Origin: Verrucomicrobiota bacterium
Lineage (GTDB): Bacteria; Verrucomicrobiota; Verrucomicrobiia; Verrucomicrobiales; DEV007
Direction: 5' to 3'
DNA: 39,612 bases
Assembly (NCBI GenBank): GCA_030625775.1
Contig: DAOUQC010000045.1
Coordinates: 1 to 39,612 of the forward strand
The notes under the pieces are model-generated. The model was not told where the DNA came from. It did not search any database and saw only the letters and a list, made by a program, of their open reading frames with translations. The translations under genes and the position numbers were made by a program. Of the stretch, positions 8,037 to 19,492 are shown one piece after another; the stretch's first letter is position 1, and each line of letters begins with the position of its first letter.

Positions 8037-8041
8037 AAAGT

Positions 8042-8505
8042 GTGGAACAGGCCTTGTAAGCCGGATTCTGTTTTTCCCCGAACCCGGACAAGCCGGATTC
8101 AAAAAAGGACGATCATTTATCTAAACCTGCCGGCCCGAAAGCCAGCAGCCTTCTCCACCGAAGTGAAGTGCGACTAATACCCGGACTCATCCTCGTCCAC
8201 CGAAGTTTCAGAGAGCCGGGCTGGCGGCCCGTTTGTCCTGTTATGTCTTGCACCGCATGGGGTTTGTCGTGCCTCCCCGGTTACCCGAAGGAGCGGTGAG
8301 CTCTTACCTCGCCATTTCACCCTTACTCTTTTCTGCCTAAACAAAAAGGAGCGGTTTATTTTCTGCGACACTTTCCGTCAACGGAAGCTTTCGCTACCCG
8401 CCTCCCCTGGTTTCTCAGGGCAATGCTGCCTTATGGTGTCCGGACTTTCCTCTGAATCCAACAGCCTAAACTGCGGAAACAGCGATCATCACCGACCTGT
8501 TCCAC
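8042..8505 (-). ncRNA. rnpB: RNase P RNA (bacterial type A)
   Basis: This is the catalytic RNA of RNase P, which matures tRNA 5' ends. Read on the minus strand, it shows the near-universal 5' P4 element GAGGAAAGTCCGGACACC (8452-8435). Further in are a GGTGAAA-like block and the conserved GGTAAGAGCTCACCG segment near 8310-8290. The 3' conserved element is ACAGAATCCGGCTTACAAGG (8071-8052). The ends pair as helix P1: GTGGAACAGGTC (8505-8494) with GGCCTGTTCCAC (8053-8042). The length of about 464 nt is longer than the roughly 375-400 nt of a typical type A RNA, implying an enlarged helix in the specificity domain. Directly after P1 the minus strand reads ACTTTTTATT, a U-tract inside the 3' end of the NIPSNAP gene that could support termination. 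The ends given are those of the P1 pairing. Confidence 0.95.
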
Positions 8506-10907: not shown

Positions 10908-12437
10908 TCAAGCCATCTCACGTCCAGCGCAAGCCACCAATTCCGGCAAAGCTTCAATCTCGTTCAAAGTCGTTCGGAAATTCACAATACAGGCCCGTAA
11001 GGCAAAACGTCCGTCAACCACCGCATTCGACAAATACACCTTGCCGTCGGATTGAAGCCTCTTCAGCAATTCTCGATTCAACTCATTCAACCATTCATCC
11101 CGATCCTCCACTCCATCGGGAACAGTTTCAGGCACGTAACGAAAAGTAGTGATACTCAAACTCTGGGTGAGCGCCTCCAGATTGGGATGTACGCCAACAC
11201 GATCATAAAGTGCTTTTGCCAGAGCAATATCATCGCGGATCATGCGAACGTAGCCTTCACGCCCTGCCTGGCGCCACGCCATCCACACCTTCAAAGCGCG
11301 GAAGCCGCGTGAATTTTGCAAGCCCAGCTCGTAATAATTGATTGTCGCATTTTCATCCGGATTTTCACCGTCTTCATCCTGATCAAAAAGATAATAGTCC
11401 GGATGAAAACTGAAGGCATCAATCAAGTTTTGTGGATTGCGCACTAAAGTGCAACCTGCCTCCAGGGGAGTGTATAGCCACTTGTGTGGATCCAGGGCAA
11501 TCGAATCCGCCTGTGCCAAAGCGCGGAGATCCACGGACGCTTCGGGCAACATCGCGGCAAAAGCCCCATAAGCTCCATCGACATGAAACCATAAATCGTT
11601 AGCTCGGCAAATGCGTCCGATGGCCTCCAGGGGATCAACCGTGCCAGTGCTGACCGTGCCCGCTGATGCCACCACCAGAAAAGGTTGGTGACCGGCCTGG
11701 CGATCTTCAGCTATTTTCCCTTCGAGTTCCACCAGATCCATTTTCTGCTCACCATCAACAGCAACCCACGTGATCGCATCCGTGCCCAAACCAAAGAGAT
11801 CCGCTGCTTTTTGAACCCATGTATGAGTTTCCCTTGAAGCATAGAGACGCATACCCTGCTCTCCACCGCGTGCCCCTTTACCACGAATATCCCACTTGGC
11901 CTTCGCTTTTCTGGCAGCAAGAAATCCAACAAAATTAGCCATGTTGCCTCCACTGACCAGCAAACCTCCGTAACCTTCCGCGCAGCCAACAGACTCACGA
12001 ATCCACTCAATCGTTTGCTTTTCTATCTCGGTGGCAACCGGGGACAAGGCCCAGGCCCCCACATTGGCATTAACAGCTGCAGCCAGTAAATCCCCCAGAG
12101 CACCAATCGGCGCAGCTGATGAAGTAACATAAGCCATGAAATTCGGATGACCGTTAAAAAGCGAATGGTCAAAAAGCAAACCCGTTGCCTCATCCAGAAT
12201 TTCTGTAGCAGGAACACCTTTTTCCGGCAAAGAGCCCCCTCCCAAAACCGACCTGACCTCAGTCACCGTTTCATCGGGGTTTACCGGACGCGAAGGCAAG
12301 GATTCCAGGAATCCGGCAATCCGGTCAACCATCTGGTATCCGAGCTTGCGGAACTCATCAGGCCCCATGTCGAGTGCTGCCTCACGCGACCCAAGGCCGC
12401 CATCATCTATTTTTTCACTGTCATTCTCCAGGCTCAT
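10908..12437 (-). CDS. Group II pyridoxal-dependent amino acid decarboxylase (AADC-like)
   Basis: A 509-residue PLP enzyme. Key elements are LLVSGGNMANFVGFLAAR (phosphate-binding region), FHVDGAYGAFAAM (Asp that holds the pyridine nitrogen) and ALDPHKWLYTPLEAG with the Schiff-base Lys319. The N-terminus (FRKLGYQMVDRIAGFLESL) matches aromatic-L-amino-acid decarboxylases and related glutamate or tyrosine decarboxylases. The product would be an amine plus CO2, in the cytoplasm. Substrate choice cannot be read from the sequence by eye. Its ATG overlaps the rapA stop by four bases (ATGA), so it is translationally coupled to rapA. It is followed by the transglutaminase-like gene. Confidence 0.88.
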   Translation of the reverse strand: MSLENDSEKIDDGGLGSREAALDMGPDEFRKLGYQMVDRIAGFLESLPSRPVNPDETVTEVRSVLGGGSLPEKGVPATEILDEATGLLFDHSLFNGHPNFMAYVTSSAAPIGALGDLLAAAVNANVGAWALSPVATEIEKQTIEWIRESVGCAEGYGGLLVSGGNMANFVGFLAARKAKAKWDIRGKGARGGEQGMRLYASRETHTWVQKAADLFGLGTDAITWVAVDGEQKMDLVELEGKIAEDRQAGHQPFLVVASAGTVSTGTVDPLEAIGRICRANDLWFHVDGAYGAFAAMLPEASVDLRALAQADSIALDPHKWLYTPLEAGCTLVRNPQNLIDAFSFHPDYYLFDQDEDGENPDENATINYYELGLQNSRGFRALKVWMAWRQAGREGYVRMIRDDIALAKALYDRVGVHPNLEALTQSLSITTFRYVPETVPDGVEDRDEWLNELNRELLKRLQSDGKVYLSNAVVDGRFALRACIVNFRTTLNEIEALPELVACAGREMA

Positions 12438-15223
12438 GTGCCCGGGGTGGCCAGAATCATCCTCACCGAATCCATTCGCAGGACGGCTTCCTGCAAATGT
12501 TTTTTCAAGGCATCCCTCTCCTCAACAGCCATGATGATCTCCGACTCCCTGACCGGATGACCCATTTTTTGCAATTTTTTCAGACGATCAATTTCGCCGT
12601 CGAGCTGCTTTTCCATTTCAGCAACGGCTTCGCAGCGTACATCGGCCGCATTTTTTTCCGCCAGATCCTTCGCTGCTTCAATCATTTTCGGCAAGGTGCC
12701 TTTCAAGGCCTTGGATTTTTTCTGCAGCCAATCAGTAGGCCCCTCTTTCGAACGCCGAATCATCTCAGGCACAAACACCTTTGACCGGTCACGCAACTGG
12801 TGATCTACCAGCGCCCTCACCGGCTGCGAAGGAAGAAAACGATCCGCATGAAATTTTTCCGGAGCCACACATTCCAACACACAAACAATATCCAGCAACA
12901 ACGCTTGCTCGGGCGCCGCTTCGATTCGCCCGAATGACGCATTACCACGTTCAGAGCCCAACAACACATCGATCGCGCTGGTCACCATCGGGTGATCCCA
13001 GGTGAACAATACAATATCTTCACGGGCCAACGCCACCTCCCGGTCAAAGGTCAGAGAAATCCCCTCTTCCGGCAAACCTGGAAAAGCCTCCGGCGAAAAC
13101 AGGTGCTCGGGGGAAATCGTATAAGAATGATCATCCAAATCCTCCACCGTCACTCCAAAATGATCGAACAGGCGCAACATAAAACGCTGCAGCCCACGCT
13201 CATCGTCCAAAGCCTCGATTTCCTCCGCCAACTCTTCTCCACGTATCTTGTCAAAGGAACTAATCTCCAAAAGATGATCCCTGCCCAGCTCCAATTCGTG
13301 ATCGACCTTTTCCTTGAAAGCCTTACCGCGATCAAGCAAATCCGGCAACTTGGCTTTCCAATCCTTGTCAGCCAACAGCTGCTTCAACTCATCCTGATAT
13401 TCCCTCTGAATGGCACTTGACCCATGCAAGGTGTGTTCAAAGGCTCCCAAACCTTCGTGATACCACCGGGCCAGCATCTCCCCCACGCTATCCGTCAAAT
13501 AGGGCACGTGAATATGAATATCCGCCTCTTGGCCAATGCGGTCCAAACGACCAATGCGTTGTTCGAGCAATGCGGGATCGTCCGGCAAATCAAACAAAAC
13601 CAGGTGATGGGCAAACTGGAAATTCCGCCCCTCACTGCCGATCTCCGAGCAAATCAAAATACGTGCGCCATCCTCATCGGCAAACCAGGCCGCATTGCGG
13701 TCGCGCTGCAACAAAGTCAGGCCCTCGTGAAATACCGCTGCCATCGCGCTGATATGCTCACGCAGGACTTCTTCGATTTTTTCTGCCATCTGCCGACTGT
13801 GACAAATCAGCAGGAATTTTTCATCTGGATTATCACCTAATAAAGTGGACAACCAAAGGATTTTGTCAGCAGTTTCATCGCTGTCAGGTTTTGCAACCAG
13901 TGGCCAAAGGTGCGCCTGACGTTCAGGGAACCCCTCCAGAACCTTACGTCGATTGCGGAACATTACTCGTCCCGTTCCGTATAAATCGACCAGAGAAGCG
14001 GTCAACTCATTACGAATTTCCCCGCCCTCATCCTCAGCCAGTTTTTCCAGCACCTCCGCACCGAGCATTTTTCCCAACAGTTTCTCTTCCGGTTTTTTCA
14101 GCTTTTCACCCGAGCGTAAACTGTCAGCCAACTGTGACACTTCCTGATAGTGATCGGATTCCTCGATAAACTCAGCCAGGTTAGAAAAACGATCTGGATC
14201 CAACAGGCGCAACCGCGCAAAGTGCCCCTCGCGCCCCAGTTGTTCCGGCGTTGCCGTCAGCAACAATAATCCCGGGGTTTCCACCGCAATCGCCGCCACC
14301 GCTTCATAGGCCGGACTCGCCTCTTCCGGACTCCACTCCAGATGGTGCGCCTCATCCACGATCAGCATATCCCAACTTCCCTCCGCCGCCTGCATGGCCC
14401 GCTCTGGATTATCCGCTAGCCACGAAGTGCCGCAAATCACCAGTTGATCATCAAAAAACGGATTATCCGAGTCCTCGCCTGCTTCAATCGACAACGCACG
14501 CTCTTCGTCATAGATCGAAAATGACATCTGAAAACGGCGATACAGCTCAACAAACCACTGATTGATCAGCGCATCGGGCACCAGAATCAAAATTCGGCTC
14601 GCACGGCCACTCTGGTTCAAACGGTGCAGAATCAGACAAGCTTCGATTGTTTTGCCCAGGCCCACCTCATCCGCCAGCAAGACCCGGGGAGCAAATCGAG
14701 AAGCCACTTCATTCGCTATATACAGCTGGTGAGGAATCAAGGAGATACGTCCACCCACCAAACCCCTCACTTTGCGCGAACGAGCTTCGTGTTTGTAACG
14801 CCTCGCCGCCTGGCGCAATTTCCAGGTTCTCGGCTCATCCACATGACCGGCCAACAGGCGAGCCTCCGGTTTTTGAAAACTGATTTTATCGGAAAGCTCG
14901 CTTTCCGGCAGTTCCTTGCCGTCCGCATCGATGTATATCAAACGCCCCTCGTCATTGCGAACATCGACCACCACGGAAGCTTCATCCGCCTGATTACGAA
15001 CGGTGTCCCCCACCGAAAACTCCACCCGGCGCAGGGGAGCACTGCGGGCGGCATAAGTCAGGGTCTGGTCACTTGCCGGAAAAATCACCTGCACCCTTTG
15101 AGTTCCGGCAGCAATGATCAAGCCCAGCCCCAACTCCGGCTGCATTTCACTGATCCAACGCTGACCGGGTGCAAAATCACTGGGGTTTGATGAAGCAATT
15201 TGATGACGGGATGGGCGAGACAT
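12434..15223 (-). CDS. rapA: RapA-like RNA polymerase-associated SNF2 helicase
   Basis: A 929-residue SWI2/SNF2 ATPase. From the chosen start the order is an N-terminal Tudor-like region (FAPGQRWISEM...), Walker A LLADEVGLGKT (about 182-192), the DEAHH box (about 290-294), and a helicase C-terminal domain with EGRNFQFA and QRIGRLDRIGQ (motif VI). A long C-terminal region matching RapA's interlock completes it. RapA recycles stalled RNA polymerase after transcription. Length is close to E. coli RapA (968 residues). The open frame begins at 15310, but the extra 29 residues are not conserved-looking; MSRPSRHQIASSNPSDFAPG at 15223 aligns with known N-termini. It heads the minus-strand series rapA, decarboxylase, transglutaminase, nitroreductase and DUF456. 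Confidence 0.88.
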   Translation of the reverse strand: MSRPSRHQIASSNPSDFAPGQRWISEMQPELGLGLIIAAGTQRVQVIFPASDQTLTYAARSAPLRRVEFSVGDTVRNQADEASVVVDVRNDEGRLIYIDADGKELPESELSDKISFQKPEARLLAGHVDEPRTWKLRQAARRYKHEARSRKVRGLVGGRISLIPHQLYIANEVASRFAPRVLLADEVGLGKTIEACLILHRLNQSGRASRILILVPDALINQWFVELYRRFQMSFSIYDEERALSIEAGEDSDNPFFDDQLVICGTSWLADNPERAMQAAEGSWDMLIVDEAHHLEWSPEEASPAYEAVAAIAVETPGLLLLTATPEQLGREGHFARLRLLDPDRFSNLAEFIEESDHYQEVSQLADSLRSGEKLKKPEEKLLGKMLGAEVLEKLAEDEGGEIRNELTASLVDLYGTGRVMFRNRRKVLEGFPERQAHLWPLVAKPDSDETADKILWLSTLLGDNPDEKFLLICHSRQMAEKIEEVLREHISAMAAVFHEGLTLLQRDRNAAWFADEDGARILICSEIGSEGRNFQFAHHLVLFDLPDDPALLEQRIGRLDRIGQEADIHIHVPYLTDSVGEMLARWYHEGLGAFEHTLHGSSAIQREYQDELKQLLADKDWKAKLPDLLDRGKAFKEKVDHELELGRDHLLEISSFDKIRGEELAEEIEALDDERGLQRFMLRLFDHFGVTVEDLDDHSYTISPEHLFSPEAFPGLPEEGISLTFDREVALAREDIVLFTWDHPMVTSAIDVLLGSERGNASFGRIEAAPEQALLLDIVCVLECVAPEKFHADRFLPSQPVRALVDHQLRDRSKVFVPEMIRRSKEGPTDWLQKKSKALKGTLPKMIEAAKDLAEKNAADVRCEAVAEMEKQLDGEIDRLKKLQKMGHPVRESEIIMAVEERDALKKHLQEAVLRMDSVRMILATPGT

Positions 15224-15428
15224 TTTGAGCAATAAAGAAAAAATAGGAACGATCAATAGACGCAATCCAACACCAGCTTTGACCGCTAACAGAGAATGCC
15301 TCTGCTTCAAGAAAAATCAACCGTTCTTCATCTGTGAATGGTTCTCTGCAGACAATTCACAACAAAAAACGCAGAATCATCCAGCTCGGCTTGAGAGATG
15401 CCCAAGGAAACCTTATACTGCATGCATT

Positions 15429-16328: not shown

Positions 16329-18938
16329 CTACTTTTTCAGCCCTTCCAGCTGCCGTTTGGTCCAATTGACCCCTTCCGTTGCCTGGGCATCTTTGGGATA
16401 GGTTGCGGACACCGCCTGCCACTGGGAAAGAGCTGCCGTATAAAGATCAACCGCTCCTTTTTTGTCGCCGGTTTTCTCACGAGCAAAAGCCGCCAGGCCG
16501 CCGGCATAGGCATACAAACGTTGGTAAGCAACGTTGCCTGCATCATCTTCCAATAACTTTCCTATCAACTGAATTGCCCGGGTCAGGGCTGGTTTCGATT
16601 CAGCAAATTGGCCGACATCACCATACAACTCCGCCATGTGGCAATTACGCTTGGCCAGCGAAAACCGCACACCCACATCCACCCGTTTCGATTCACCTGC
16701 TTCCTCAATTACAGTTTCAAGTAGCTTGGCCGCGTCTTTTTCCAGCTTGATCCCTGCCACTGACTCCCCTGCATCGCGCTGCAGCGCGGCCAAAGCTCCC
16801 AGACACTCAGCTAATGTTGTGGCATAACGTGGATCCTCGCTATGAGAGGGCATCAATCGTGATAGCAGCCTCATAGCGTCCTGAAGTGATGCTGCATCCC
16901 TCTTCAATCCTCCCAACACTACCAAATTGGATGCCAGGCGATATTGGTAATCGTCCACTGCCCCATTCAAGGAAATCGCTTCACTCAACAGTTCCACACT
17001 TTTTTTGTACATCTCCAGAGCAGAATCCTGCTGCCCTGATTCCATCAAAATCTCTCCGATCCCTGTAAAAGCGGTTGCCAGGGATGCCAGAATTTCTGCA
17101 TTCTGGGGACTCTTTTCCTGTAGATTGACCAGAGCATCCGCGGCCGCTTCAAAACCTTCCCCCGCCAGTTTATTTTCACGATTGAGACGACGCCAGCGCG
17201 CTTCAGTTAACAGGTTTTTGGCCGCTTCCAGATTTCCTTCTACTGCCTGCTCCGGTGATTTTTCCACCCACGCCTTCCATAAAGCCGACGATTCCTTCAA
17301 CATTGTGACTGCCTGGGCAGCCTCTCCTTCCAAATCATAAAACACCTCACCTTGACGCTGCCTCACTAACGCCAGATTCCTTACGATCGTCAGGTCATCC
17401 GGCTTTTGTTTATTCAGAATTCGCAGTCGTTTTTCTGATTCGTCAAAAGCCCTTGTTGCCTGGCCCAGCTCACCTCGCTCACGATAAATTTCGCCGAGAA
17501 AACGATAAGCATCAGAACTAGGACCAATCAGATCCGGACTTTCCCCGTAACGCTTCACCTTCTGCTCATAATATGACTTTGCATCGACAAGTCGCAGTCT
17601 CCTCTCCAACTGGAACCCTGGCACATCCGTATCACGATGTTCGAGAATCATCTCGAAAAACCGATCTCCATAGGTCTGCATTGACAATAAAAAGTCTTCA
17701 ACTTCCTTGGCATTCTGCTGAACTTTCCGTGTTTCATCCTTGGCGCTGGCGACTTCCGAATCCTTGTTTTTTAGTGCTGCCCCCAACTCGCTCTGCACTT
17801 TTTCGATCTGGCTTTTACTGACCTTCACCCCTTCATCTGTTTGTGATATAGCCTCTTGCCACTCCTTTTGAGCCTCACTGAATTTCCCGTAAAACATCAT
17901 CCCCGCAACGATTCCCAAAATTGCCAGAATACTGGCCAGGCCTACTCCCATTCGAGCCTTGTTCAGGCGCCCCTTCATCGCCTGCTCTGCCACCACATAA
18001 CTGCCCTGCATCTGGCGGATCGCTGCAGAATTTTCCAGCATTTGAAAGTCTGCCAGTACTTCACGCATGTCAGTGTAGCGATCCTGAGGATCCAAACTCA
18101 AGCAGCGTTCGATGATCCCCCGCCGTTCCTCCAAAGCCTCTGTCGCCGCCGCGTGAGGCCAGTTGATATCCGGTTGCTTTTCCATCCATTCAACATACTG
18201 CCCTGGCTGCTGGAGAATTGTCGCAAACGAAGACATCTGGCTTCCCTTACGCAAGTCATGATCACGAAGGAACTCTTGAAACAAAGCATTCAGCCTGGGC
18301 AAATGACCCGTTATCAACTGGTAGGCAACCACTCCAAAAGAATACACATCCCACTGCTGTCCCCGACCATTGGTGAAATCCCCCGTAGTCAGTTGTTCCG
18401 GACTGGCATAAAATCCAATATCTCCCATTTCCAGATAGTGCAGACCCCCGACATAACCCTGCCCCCAATCACTCAGGCGAATCTGATATCCCGAACTGAC
18501 ACTTCCACTGAGAAAAATATTACTCGGCTTCAGGCCTACATGAATCACCCCATAACGATGCTCAAAAGCCAAGGCATCTGCCAGCTGACCCACCAAGACT
18601 GACGCCTGTTCTTCATCCACAACACCGATCAATCCGGTGATGTCGTCCCCCACCCATTTTCCTGTTTCCGGATCCCTACTGCCGTGAAGTGATGTGATCT
18701 GGTAATAGGGATTATCCACTAGATTGTGCCCACACAGATCCACCAGCCCCGGATGAACCGGTGCTCGCGCCAGGCGATCCAGATTTTCCTGTACCAGGGA
18801 CGGATTGATTGCCAAAGCTTTAAGCACATTGACCACCCGGTCCTCGCCCGTCTCACAAGTGCAACGGTAAACAAAACCGCACCCCCCTTCCCCTACCAGT
18901 TCTTCAAACTGATAGCCCTCTATCTCTGGCAAATTCAT
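16329..18938 (-). CDS. Membrane protein kinase-like receptor (probable pseudokinase) with helical-repeat tail
   Basis: An 869-residue protein. Residues about 9-300 are a Ser/Thr kinase fold with an intact glycine loop (GEGGCG, 16-21), a KPSN segment (137-140), DWG (157-159, standing for DFG), the APE-like ASPEQL (178-183) and WDVYSFGVV (196-204). The catalytic loop reads VIHVGLKPSN, so the HRD triplet is HVG and the catalytic Asp is Gly135. The VAIK lysine position appears to be Asn37 (VVNVLK). One transmembrane helix spans about 331-350, then a coiled coil about 355-415, then tetratricopeptide-like helical repeats to the C-terminus, presumably periplasmic. It most likely binds nucleotide or partners rather than phosphorylating. 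A GGAGG at 18940-18944 lies only one base before the ATG; see the separate entry. Confidence 0.85.
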   Translation of the reverse strand: MNLPEIEGYQFEELVGEGGCGFVYRCTCETGEDRVVNVLKALAINPSLVQENLDRLARAPVHPGLVDLCGHNLVDNPYYQITSLHGSRDPETGKWVGDDITGLIGVVDEEQASVLVGQLADALAFEHRYGVIHVGLKPSNIFLSGSVSSGYQIRLSDWGQGYVGGLHYLEMGDIGFYASPEQLTTGDFTNGRGQQWDVYSFGVVAYQLITGHLPRLNALFQEFLRDHDLRKGSQMSSFATILQQPGQYVEWMEKQPDINWPHAAATEALEERRGIIERCLSLDPQDRYTDMREVLADFQMLENSAAIRQMQGSYVVAEQAMKGRLNKARMGVGLASILAILGIVAGMMFYGKFSEAQKEWQEAISQTDEGVKVSKSQIEKVQSELGAALKNKDSEVASAKDETRKVQQNAKEVEDFLLSMQTYGDRFFEMILEHRDTDVPGFQLERRLRLVDAKSYYEQKVKRYGESPDLIGPSSDAYRFLGEIYRERGELGQATRAFDESEKRLRILNKQKPDDLTIVRNLALVRQRQGEVFYDLEGEAAQAVTMLKESSALWKAWVEKSPEQAVEGNLEAAKNLLTEARWRRLNRENKLAGEGFEAAADALVNLQEKSPQNAEILASLATAFTGIGEILMESGQQDSALEMYKKSVELLSEAISLNGAVDDYQYRLASNLVVLGGLKRDAASLQDAMRLLSRLMPSHSEDPRYATTLAECLGALAALQRDAGESVAGIKLEKDAAKLLETVIEEAGESKRVDVGVRFSLAKRNCHMAELYGDVGQFAESKPALTRAIQLIGKLLEDDAGNVAYQRLYAYAGGLAAFAREKTGDKKGAVDLYTAALSQWQAVSATYPKDAQATEGVNWTKRQLEGLKK

Positions 18939-19189: not shown

Positions 19190-19492
19190 TCATTTTTTGT
19201 TCAAAATGTATTCTACGATGCTTTCCCATTCAGCTTCGATTTGCTCCGGGTCAATCTCTGGGCGGCCAGCACGATTATACCAATAGGCGGCATTACCCAT
19301 ATCTCCCTCGATCGCGTGTAAAAGAGCGTGAATCCATGAGCCCAATGGCGTATCTATATCCTGCGCCACTTCATGAGACTCATGCCAGCGATCCTTTTTA
19401 GCCCACCACAAGGCCGACAACTCCAAACCTAGCCCTTCAGGTGGTTCCGCATCACTGACCACCGACGCAAGTAACTCTCCTACTGTTTCCAT
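19190..19492 (-). CDS. Small conserved-looking protein of unknown function
   Basis: A 100-residue soluble protein with a notable run of Trp, Tyr and His: LWWAKKDRWHESHEVAQDID, then SWIHALLHAIEGDMGNAAYW and YNRAGRPE. The pattern (ALWWAKKDRW...H...GDMGNAAYWYNRAG) resembles a small uncharacterised family I recall from several bacterial phyla, probably a single helical hairpin of TPR-like type. No catalytic motif or signal peptide is visible. It is divergent from the RNA methyltransferase gene, with 66 bases between starts, so both promoters must share that short gap. Confidence 0.7.
   Translation of the reverse strand: METVGELLASVVSDAEPPEGLGLELSALWWAKKDRWHESHEVAQDIDTPLGSWIHALLHAIEGDMGNAAYWYNRAGRPEIDPEQIEAEWESIVEYILNKK

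Follow-up and report, generated by a model that had tools for sequence, protein, structure and literature searches.

The gene at positions 16329–18938 on the minus strand of the window (here, the whole stretch of 39,612 nucleotides that was analyzed) encodes an 869-aa receptor-like protein with a kinase domain, a transmembrane (TM) helix and a TPR tail. It likely belongs to a family of receptor pseudokinases found throughout the order, which cross the inner membrane once and act by binding and allostery. Because relatives across the Verrucomicrobiales keep the loss of the catalytic residue, the protein is probably a conserved signaling scaffold and neither an enzyme nor a broken gene.

A kinase fold without its catalytic residues

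The gene was delimited by its open reading frame, Pfam matches and orthologues. The frame has no internal stops and starts with an ATG that is preceded by AAGGAGGA, a strong ribosome-binding site. Its first 303 residues form the predicted cytoplasmic pseudokinase domain (18030–18938, minus strand), as defined by Pfam and alignments and modeled mostly with a pLDDT of 85–97. Pfam Pkinase (PF00069) matched residues 9–295 (E = 1.1e-19; 71.3 bits against a curated cut-off of 31.7 bits) and Foldseek matched the kinase fold, which places the protein in the Hanks-type (ePK) superfamily. The motifs listed in a first-pass annotation of this DNA were all located: a kept glycine loop (GEGGCG, residues 16–21), KPSN, DWG at the DFG position (residues 157–159), SPE in place of APE, and WDVYSFG (residues 196–202).

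The catalytic loop (18519–18542, minus strand; residues 133–140) is encoded by CAT GTA GGC CTG AAG CCG AGT AAT, or His-Val-Gly-Leu-Lys-Pro-Ser-Asn, so that HRDLKPSN has become HVGLKPSN and a Gly occupies the place where catalysis requires Asp. The VAIK motif of strand β3 reads VVNV, with Asn37 replacing Lys, and both substitutions agree with the original reading of the gene. A second conserved loss, missed in that reading, is the αC Glu, which is also absent from the domain. The window protein thus lacks three residues expected of an active Ser/Thr kinase: the HRD Asp (HVG), the VAIK Lys (Asn37) and the αC Glu. HVG also occurs in two other genomes of the window's genus, in proteins 80 and 79% identical to this one; clean codons and an identical reading in three genomes therefore exclude a frameshift or sequencing error, as had been argued from the codons. 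The window's own genome encodes 14 kinase domains, of which 12 read HRD or HCD and the window gene reads HVG; for the remaining domain, on contig C50, the motif scan gave no reading.

Residue losses, spread and origin of the family

Using one seed profile and a MAFFT alignment, we assembled 151 family members, or 87 once those at least 80% identical were removed; most of the genomes are metagenome assemblies, and the genome sets of the separate searches overlap before near-copy removal. The HRD Asp was missing in 150 of the 151 members, which come from several families of Verrucomicrobiales and include the isolates Brevifollis gellanilyticus and Verrucomicrobium sp. This alignment with orthologues and active kinases had been set as a test of the annotation, and it upholds the annotation's central claim by rejecting a single-strain loss of the Asp. 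A loss among the VAIK Lys, HRD Asp and DFG Asp that is conserved in orthologues is what defines a pseudokinase by sequence, and the family shows one.

Across the 87 non-redundant members, the residue at the HRD Asp position was N in 49, G in 28, S in 4, A in 2, and C, H, Q and D in 1 each, next to an invariant His133 (87/87). The αC Glu was found in none of the 87, compared with 12 of 12 members of the active sister family described below, and at each position of the αC helix (44 to 61) at most 20 members were acidic. Nucleotide-holding positions were mostly intact: the catalytic-loop Asn was kept in 72, the DFG Asp in 75 and Gly21 of the G-loop in 84, while the β3 Lys position held K in 70, R in 13 and Q in 1. 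The Lys, catalytic-loop Asn and DFG Asp were present together in 61 members. Judged from these alignments, the family is marked by missing its catalytic base and αC Glu while retaining most residues that hold Mg-ATP. The window's genus stands one step beyond this pattern, having also lost the VAIK Lys. The suggestion that this Lys loss might be a shared trait did not hold: because Asn is confined to the single cluster formed by the window's genus and other members have Lys or Arg, the degraded ATP anchor reads as a local, genus-level extra and not as a trait of the class.

One member (L102:1790-2920) is the sole carrier of an Asp at the HRD position, reading HAD in an open reading frame cut by the contig end; its genome has 7% contamination, and the HAD is nested in the pseudokinase clade, suggesting a possible regain of the catalytic base. 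Separately, the window's taxonomic family holds a second, more divergent pseudokinase subfamily with HxNLHPGN and mostly WDVYRFG (L048:11350-13884, L096, L098, L100, L104, L105 and L107-L109), which in L048 lies beside the orthologue.

These residue patterns bear on what the domain could still catalyze. A protein kinase that is weak or works by another route, with Asn or another residue at the HRD Asp position supporting slow phosphotransfer or autophosphorylation, is hard to reconcile with a position that is filled variously by N, G, S, A, C, H or Q, that in 28 members (window protein included) holds a Gly unable to act as a base, and that is accompanied by loss of the αC Glu in all members and of the VAIK Lys in the window's genus. 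It draws support from the largely retained Lys, catalytic-loop Asn and DFG Asp and from the roughly half of members that read HxN, given that weak activity has been reported for the HRD-to-HRN pseudokinase domains of HER3 and JAK2 (PMC7586955). The HxN share and the one HAD member count against our preferred explanation. On balance, we consider residual kinase activity improbable. Conservation of the Mg-ATP-holding residues without the catalytic Asp in those 61 members would also suit a fold turned to a different nucleotide-using reaction, such as AMPylation (as in SelO) or glutamylation (as in SidJ), two known cases of such repurposing (PMC12599244). SelO and SidJ, however, carry active-site signatures of their own, and among columns conserved at ≥72% we found no family-specific new set of polar active-site residues; with the Lys also lost in the window's genus, this reading seems very improbable. 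The inactivity of the family is a prediction from sequence.

Most Verrucomicrobiales genomes encode a full-length relative. In a scan of 84,980 species genomes, the best 80 loci were all from Verrucomicrobia, including Prosthecobacter, Verrucomicrobium and Brevifollis, with a handful of these loci representing the active sister and not the pseudokinase. In a class sample (286 genomes) and a phylum sample (387 genomes), members were confined to Verrucomicrobiales, except for one more distant member from another family of the class (G183, HGAVKPTN). At E ≤ 1e-20, no member was found in an Akkermansia-like genus with small, mostly complete genomes (2.2–3.5 Mb). In the genomes sampled, the family thus spans the order and is very rare outside it.

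A kinase-domain tree built without the catalytic columns grouped the pseudokinases of the order into one clade (98/89 bootstrap/SH-aLRT; 94/76 once G183 was included), whose neighbors are active HCD kinases with CDFGQS. The state of the Asp on this tree requires two changes, one loss and one apparent regain in L102. Because active kinases surround the clade, the topology suggests evolution from an active receptor kinase to a pseudokinase. The nearest family in the tree (HCD..DFGQS) has the same kinase-TM-TPR layout and shares Pkinase, one TM helix, a TPR tail, WDVYSFG, PEQL and other motifs with the pseudokinases, but it retains the HRD-type Asp, αC Glu, Lys and DFG, is far more conserved, and was detected in only some members of the window's taxonomic family. 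As far as sequences can show, the pseudokinases descend from active HCD kinases of identical layout, lost the catalytic Asp and αC Glu once, and have since been kept without them under purifying selection. The window's own genome encodes an active-looking HCD kinase with a TM helix and TPRs (L116:1521-3713, on contig C91 of G000) that is sister to the pseudokinase and 56–93% identical to copies in 15 other genomes of the same taxonomic family.

Between three genomes of the window's genus, dN/dS in the kinase domain was ~0.04–0.08, figures that are approximate given a dS of 1.6–2.8, near saturation. By these estimates the pseudokinase domain is under strong purifying selection, and the constraint is plain despite the approximate values. 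Mean domain identity over the 16 genomes carrying both proteins was 40% for the pseudokinase and 68% for the active sister, which was the more conserved of the two in 120 of 120 genome pairs; lower identity in the pseudokinase is what would be expected once catalytic constraint is lost. Degraded catalytic motifs could in principle mark a decaying gene, with losses fixed by chance in one lineage. We give this reading almost no weight: orthologues are full-length in most genomes of the order, reading frames are intact, and the low dN/dS excludes a dying gene.

Topology, gene context and proposed mode of action

AlphaFold2 run with 35 orthologues gave a mean pLDDT of 85 and a confident kinase and TPR fold, in line with the structure prediction that had been proposed as a check. 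A continuous helix was predicted at residues 291–345, ending in a single TM segment (17886–17945, minus strand; residues 332–351) that is supported by both hydropathy and the predicted fold. Beyond this segment, the model shows a low-confidence linker, a 63-residue helix (371–433) and 18 further helices that form a TPR superhelix reaching residue 869. Pfam TPR models matched the tail, and Foldseek matched it to the TPR superhelix of O-GlcNAc transferase. The segment previously named a coiled coil corresponds to a low-confidence predicted helix (pLDDT 45–72). A TM helix followed the kinase domain in 77 of 84 non-redundant members, and the kinase side was the more positive one in 65 of these 77. 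Because of this charge bias, we infer that the TPR part (16332–17828, minus strand) lies outside the cytoplasm and the kinase inside. Hydropathy, charge bias and the predicted fold together back the one-pass membrane receptor layout of the first-pass annotation.

Upstream of the pseudokinase and on the same strand, the window contains a conserved gene for a 100-aa all-helical protein (19190–19492, minus strand) at a gap of 251 bp. In the window's taxonomic family, 18 loci have this gene next to the pseudokinase (gaps, 39–458 bp). Of 57 relatives' genomes, 49 carry it, many at a site apart from the pseudokinase; it is absent from the Akkermansia-like genus. Its product carries the motif LW..KK..W..AH..AQ...GSWIHA.LH.IEGD.GNA.YWY.RAG and has a predicted fold with a pLDDT of 94, with no match in Pfam, NCBIfam or PADLOC and no significant match in a search against PDB folds. 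Downstream of the pseudokinase, a gene named by sequence reading as a CysQ-type bisphosphate nucleotidase occurs in 14 loci of the window's taxonomic family (L047-L059, L064, L069), followed in several by genes for a membrane protein and an AsmA-like protein; it is absent beside the pseudokinase in the window's genus.

We rejected both genes as general partners, as neither is an order-wide neighbor and most other genomes place the 100-aa gene away from the pseudokinase. No neighboring gene was conserved across the whole order, and context therefore assigns no function. A defense system was likewise rejected, since PADLOC kinase models matched as distant kinases only. The remainder of the window is ordinary housekeeping, including a RapA-type RNA polymerase recycling ATPase (12434–15310, minus strand; NCBIfam, 1041 bits), BamA, RuvB, LpxD and a class A RNase P RNA (8041–8502, minus strand; Rfam RF00010, 191 bits).

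For a pseudokinase receptor that works through binding and allostery, we propose that the periplasmic TPR superhelix would bind a protein or peptide, or oligomerize, and that the signal would travel through the membrane along the continuous helix 291–345. The kinase-fold domain might then change conformation and control a cytoplasmic partner, either another Hanks kinase or a non-kinase effector, through contact and not phosphotransfer. Loss of the αC Glu precludes the usual Lys-Glu switch, and any switching would have to occur by other means. Among the relatives, most domains probably retain Mg-nucleotide binding, with the nucleotide serving a structural or regulatory purpose. Having Asn in place of the VAIK Lys, the protein of the window's genus probably binds nucleotide more weakly or not at all, and is more likely to act purely as a scaffold. 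The first-pass suggestion of a scaffold or nucleotide sensor is plausible.

A more specific form of this mechanism would make the pseudokinase a heteromeric partner and allosteric regulator of the active sister kinase on contig C91, as HER3 is with HER2. The sister is the nearest paralogue, shares the layout and co-occurs with the pseudokinase in 16 genomes of the window's taxonomic family. The two genes are, however, unlinked, and some families of the order carry the pseudokinase with no close sister kinase detected, so we regard this pairing as possible but unlikely. Because no neighbor is order-wide and the sister is found in part of the window's taxonomic family only, neither is an obligate partner.

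Relation to known pseudokinases

A 2025 review describes seven bacterial pseudokinase families (ActPs1-3, GLW, CP1, DYD and DLHK) in addition to EssB, SidJ and SelO, and mentions neither Verrucomicrobia nor TPRs (PMC12599244). By these descriptions none of the seven fits, each being set apart by motif, layout or host. ActPs2 pseudokinases are likewise membrane proteins with an active family as their source, and their HRD Asp is often Asn; however, ActPs2 is actinobacterial and has a β3 Arg, HRN, a DFG deletion and a 250-aa activation-loop extension (PMC12599244), whereas the verrucomicrobial family has mostly Lys, usually keeps the DFG Asp, and combines a domain of ~300 aa with TPRs. GLW proteins also have a TM helix after the kinase domain and a replaced HRD, but GLW stands at their HRD position and a bulky Leu or Trp at that of the Lys, whereas here His133 is invariant and the Lys mostly kept. 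DYD and DLHK show the opposite pattern, with the HRD Asp kept and the Lys lost. CP1 has no TM helix and an attached COG3899 ATPase, unlike the TM-bearing, TPR-tailed proteins described here. ActPs1 and ActPs3 (MviN-type), compared by motifs and not by profile, are actinobacterial and have lost all three motifs, whereas the DFG Asp and catalytic-loop Asn are kept here.

EssB/YukC resembles the family in having a cytoplasmic pseudokinase, one TM helix, an outside part and scaffold action, but all its motifs and its G-loop are degraded and it belongs to the T7SSb of Firmicutes; no T7SSb-type secretion genes were seen among the annotated flanking genes. HER3, EphB6 and plant receptor pseudokinases are likewise single-pass receptors with a cytoplasmic pseudokinase, a likeness that is analogous only, as their domain order along the chain is reversed and their outside domains differ. 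A literature search found no report of a verrucomicrobial pseudokinase. The claim of an undescribed class stands with respect to the seven reviewed families, although the proteins may belong to one of the other families in the atlas of 42 bacterial kinase families that underlies the review.

To our knowledge, few bacterial pseudokinases have a known job. The family forms a clean natural series, with a single origin, an identifiable active sister of the same layout, a spread across the order (the Akkermansia-like genus excepted) and a nucleotide anchor lost by degrees (Lys, Arg, Asn). We see about an even chance that the whole order relies on a dedicated class of transmembrane receptor pseudokinases, of single origin and with TPR superhelices in the periplasm, to transduce signals without catalysis, as a bacterial counterpart of the HER3 type; most lineages would have kept nucleotide binding and some, such as the window's genus, dropped it. 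With members in the cultured genera Prosthecobacter, Brevifollis and Verrucomicrobium, the family makes signaling by bacterial receptor kinases without phosphotransfer directly testable.
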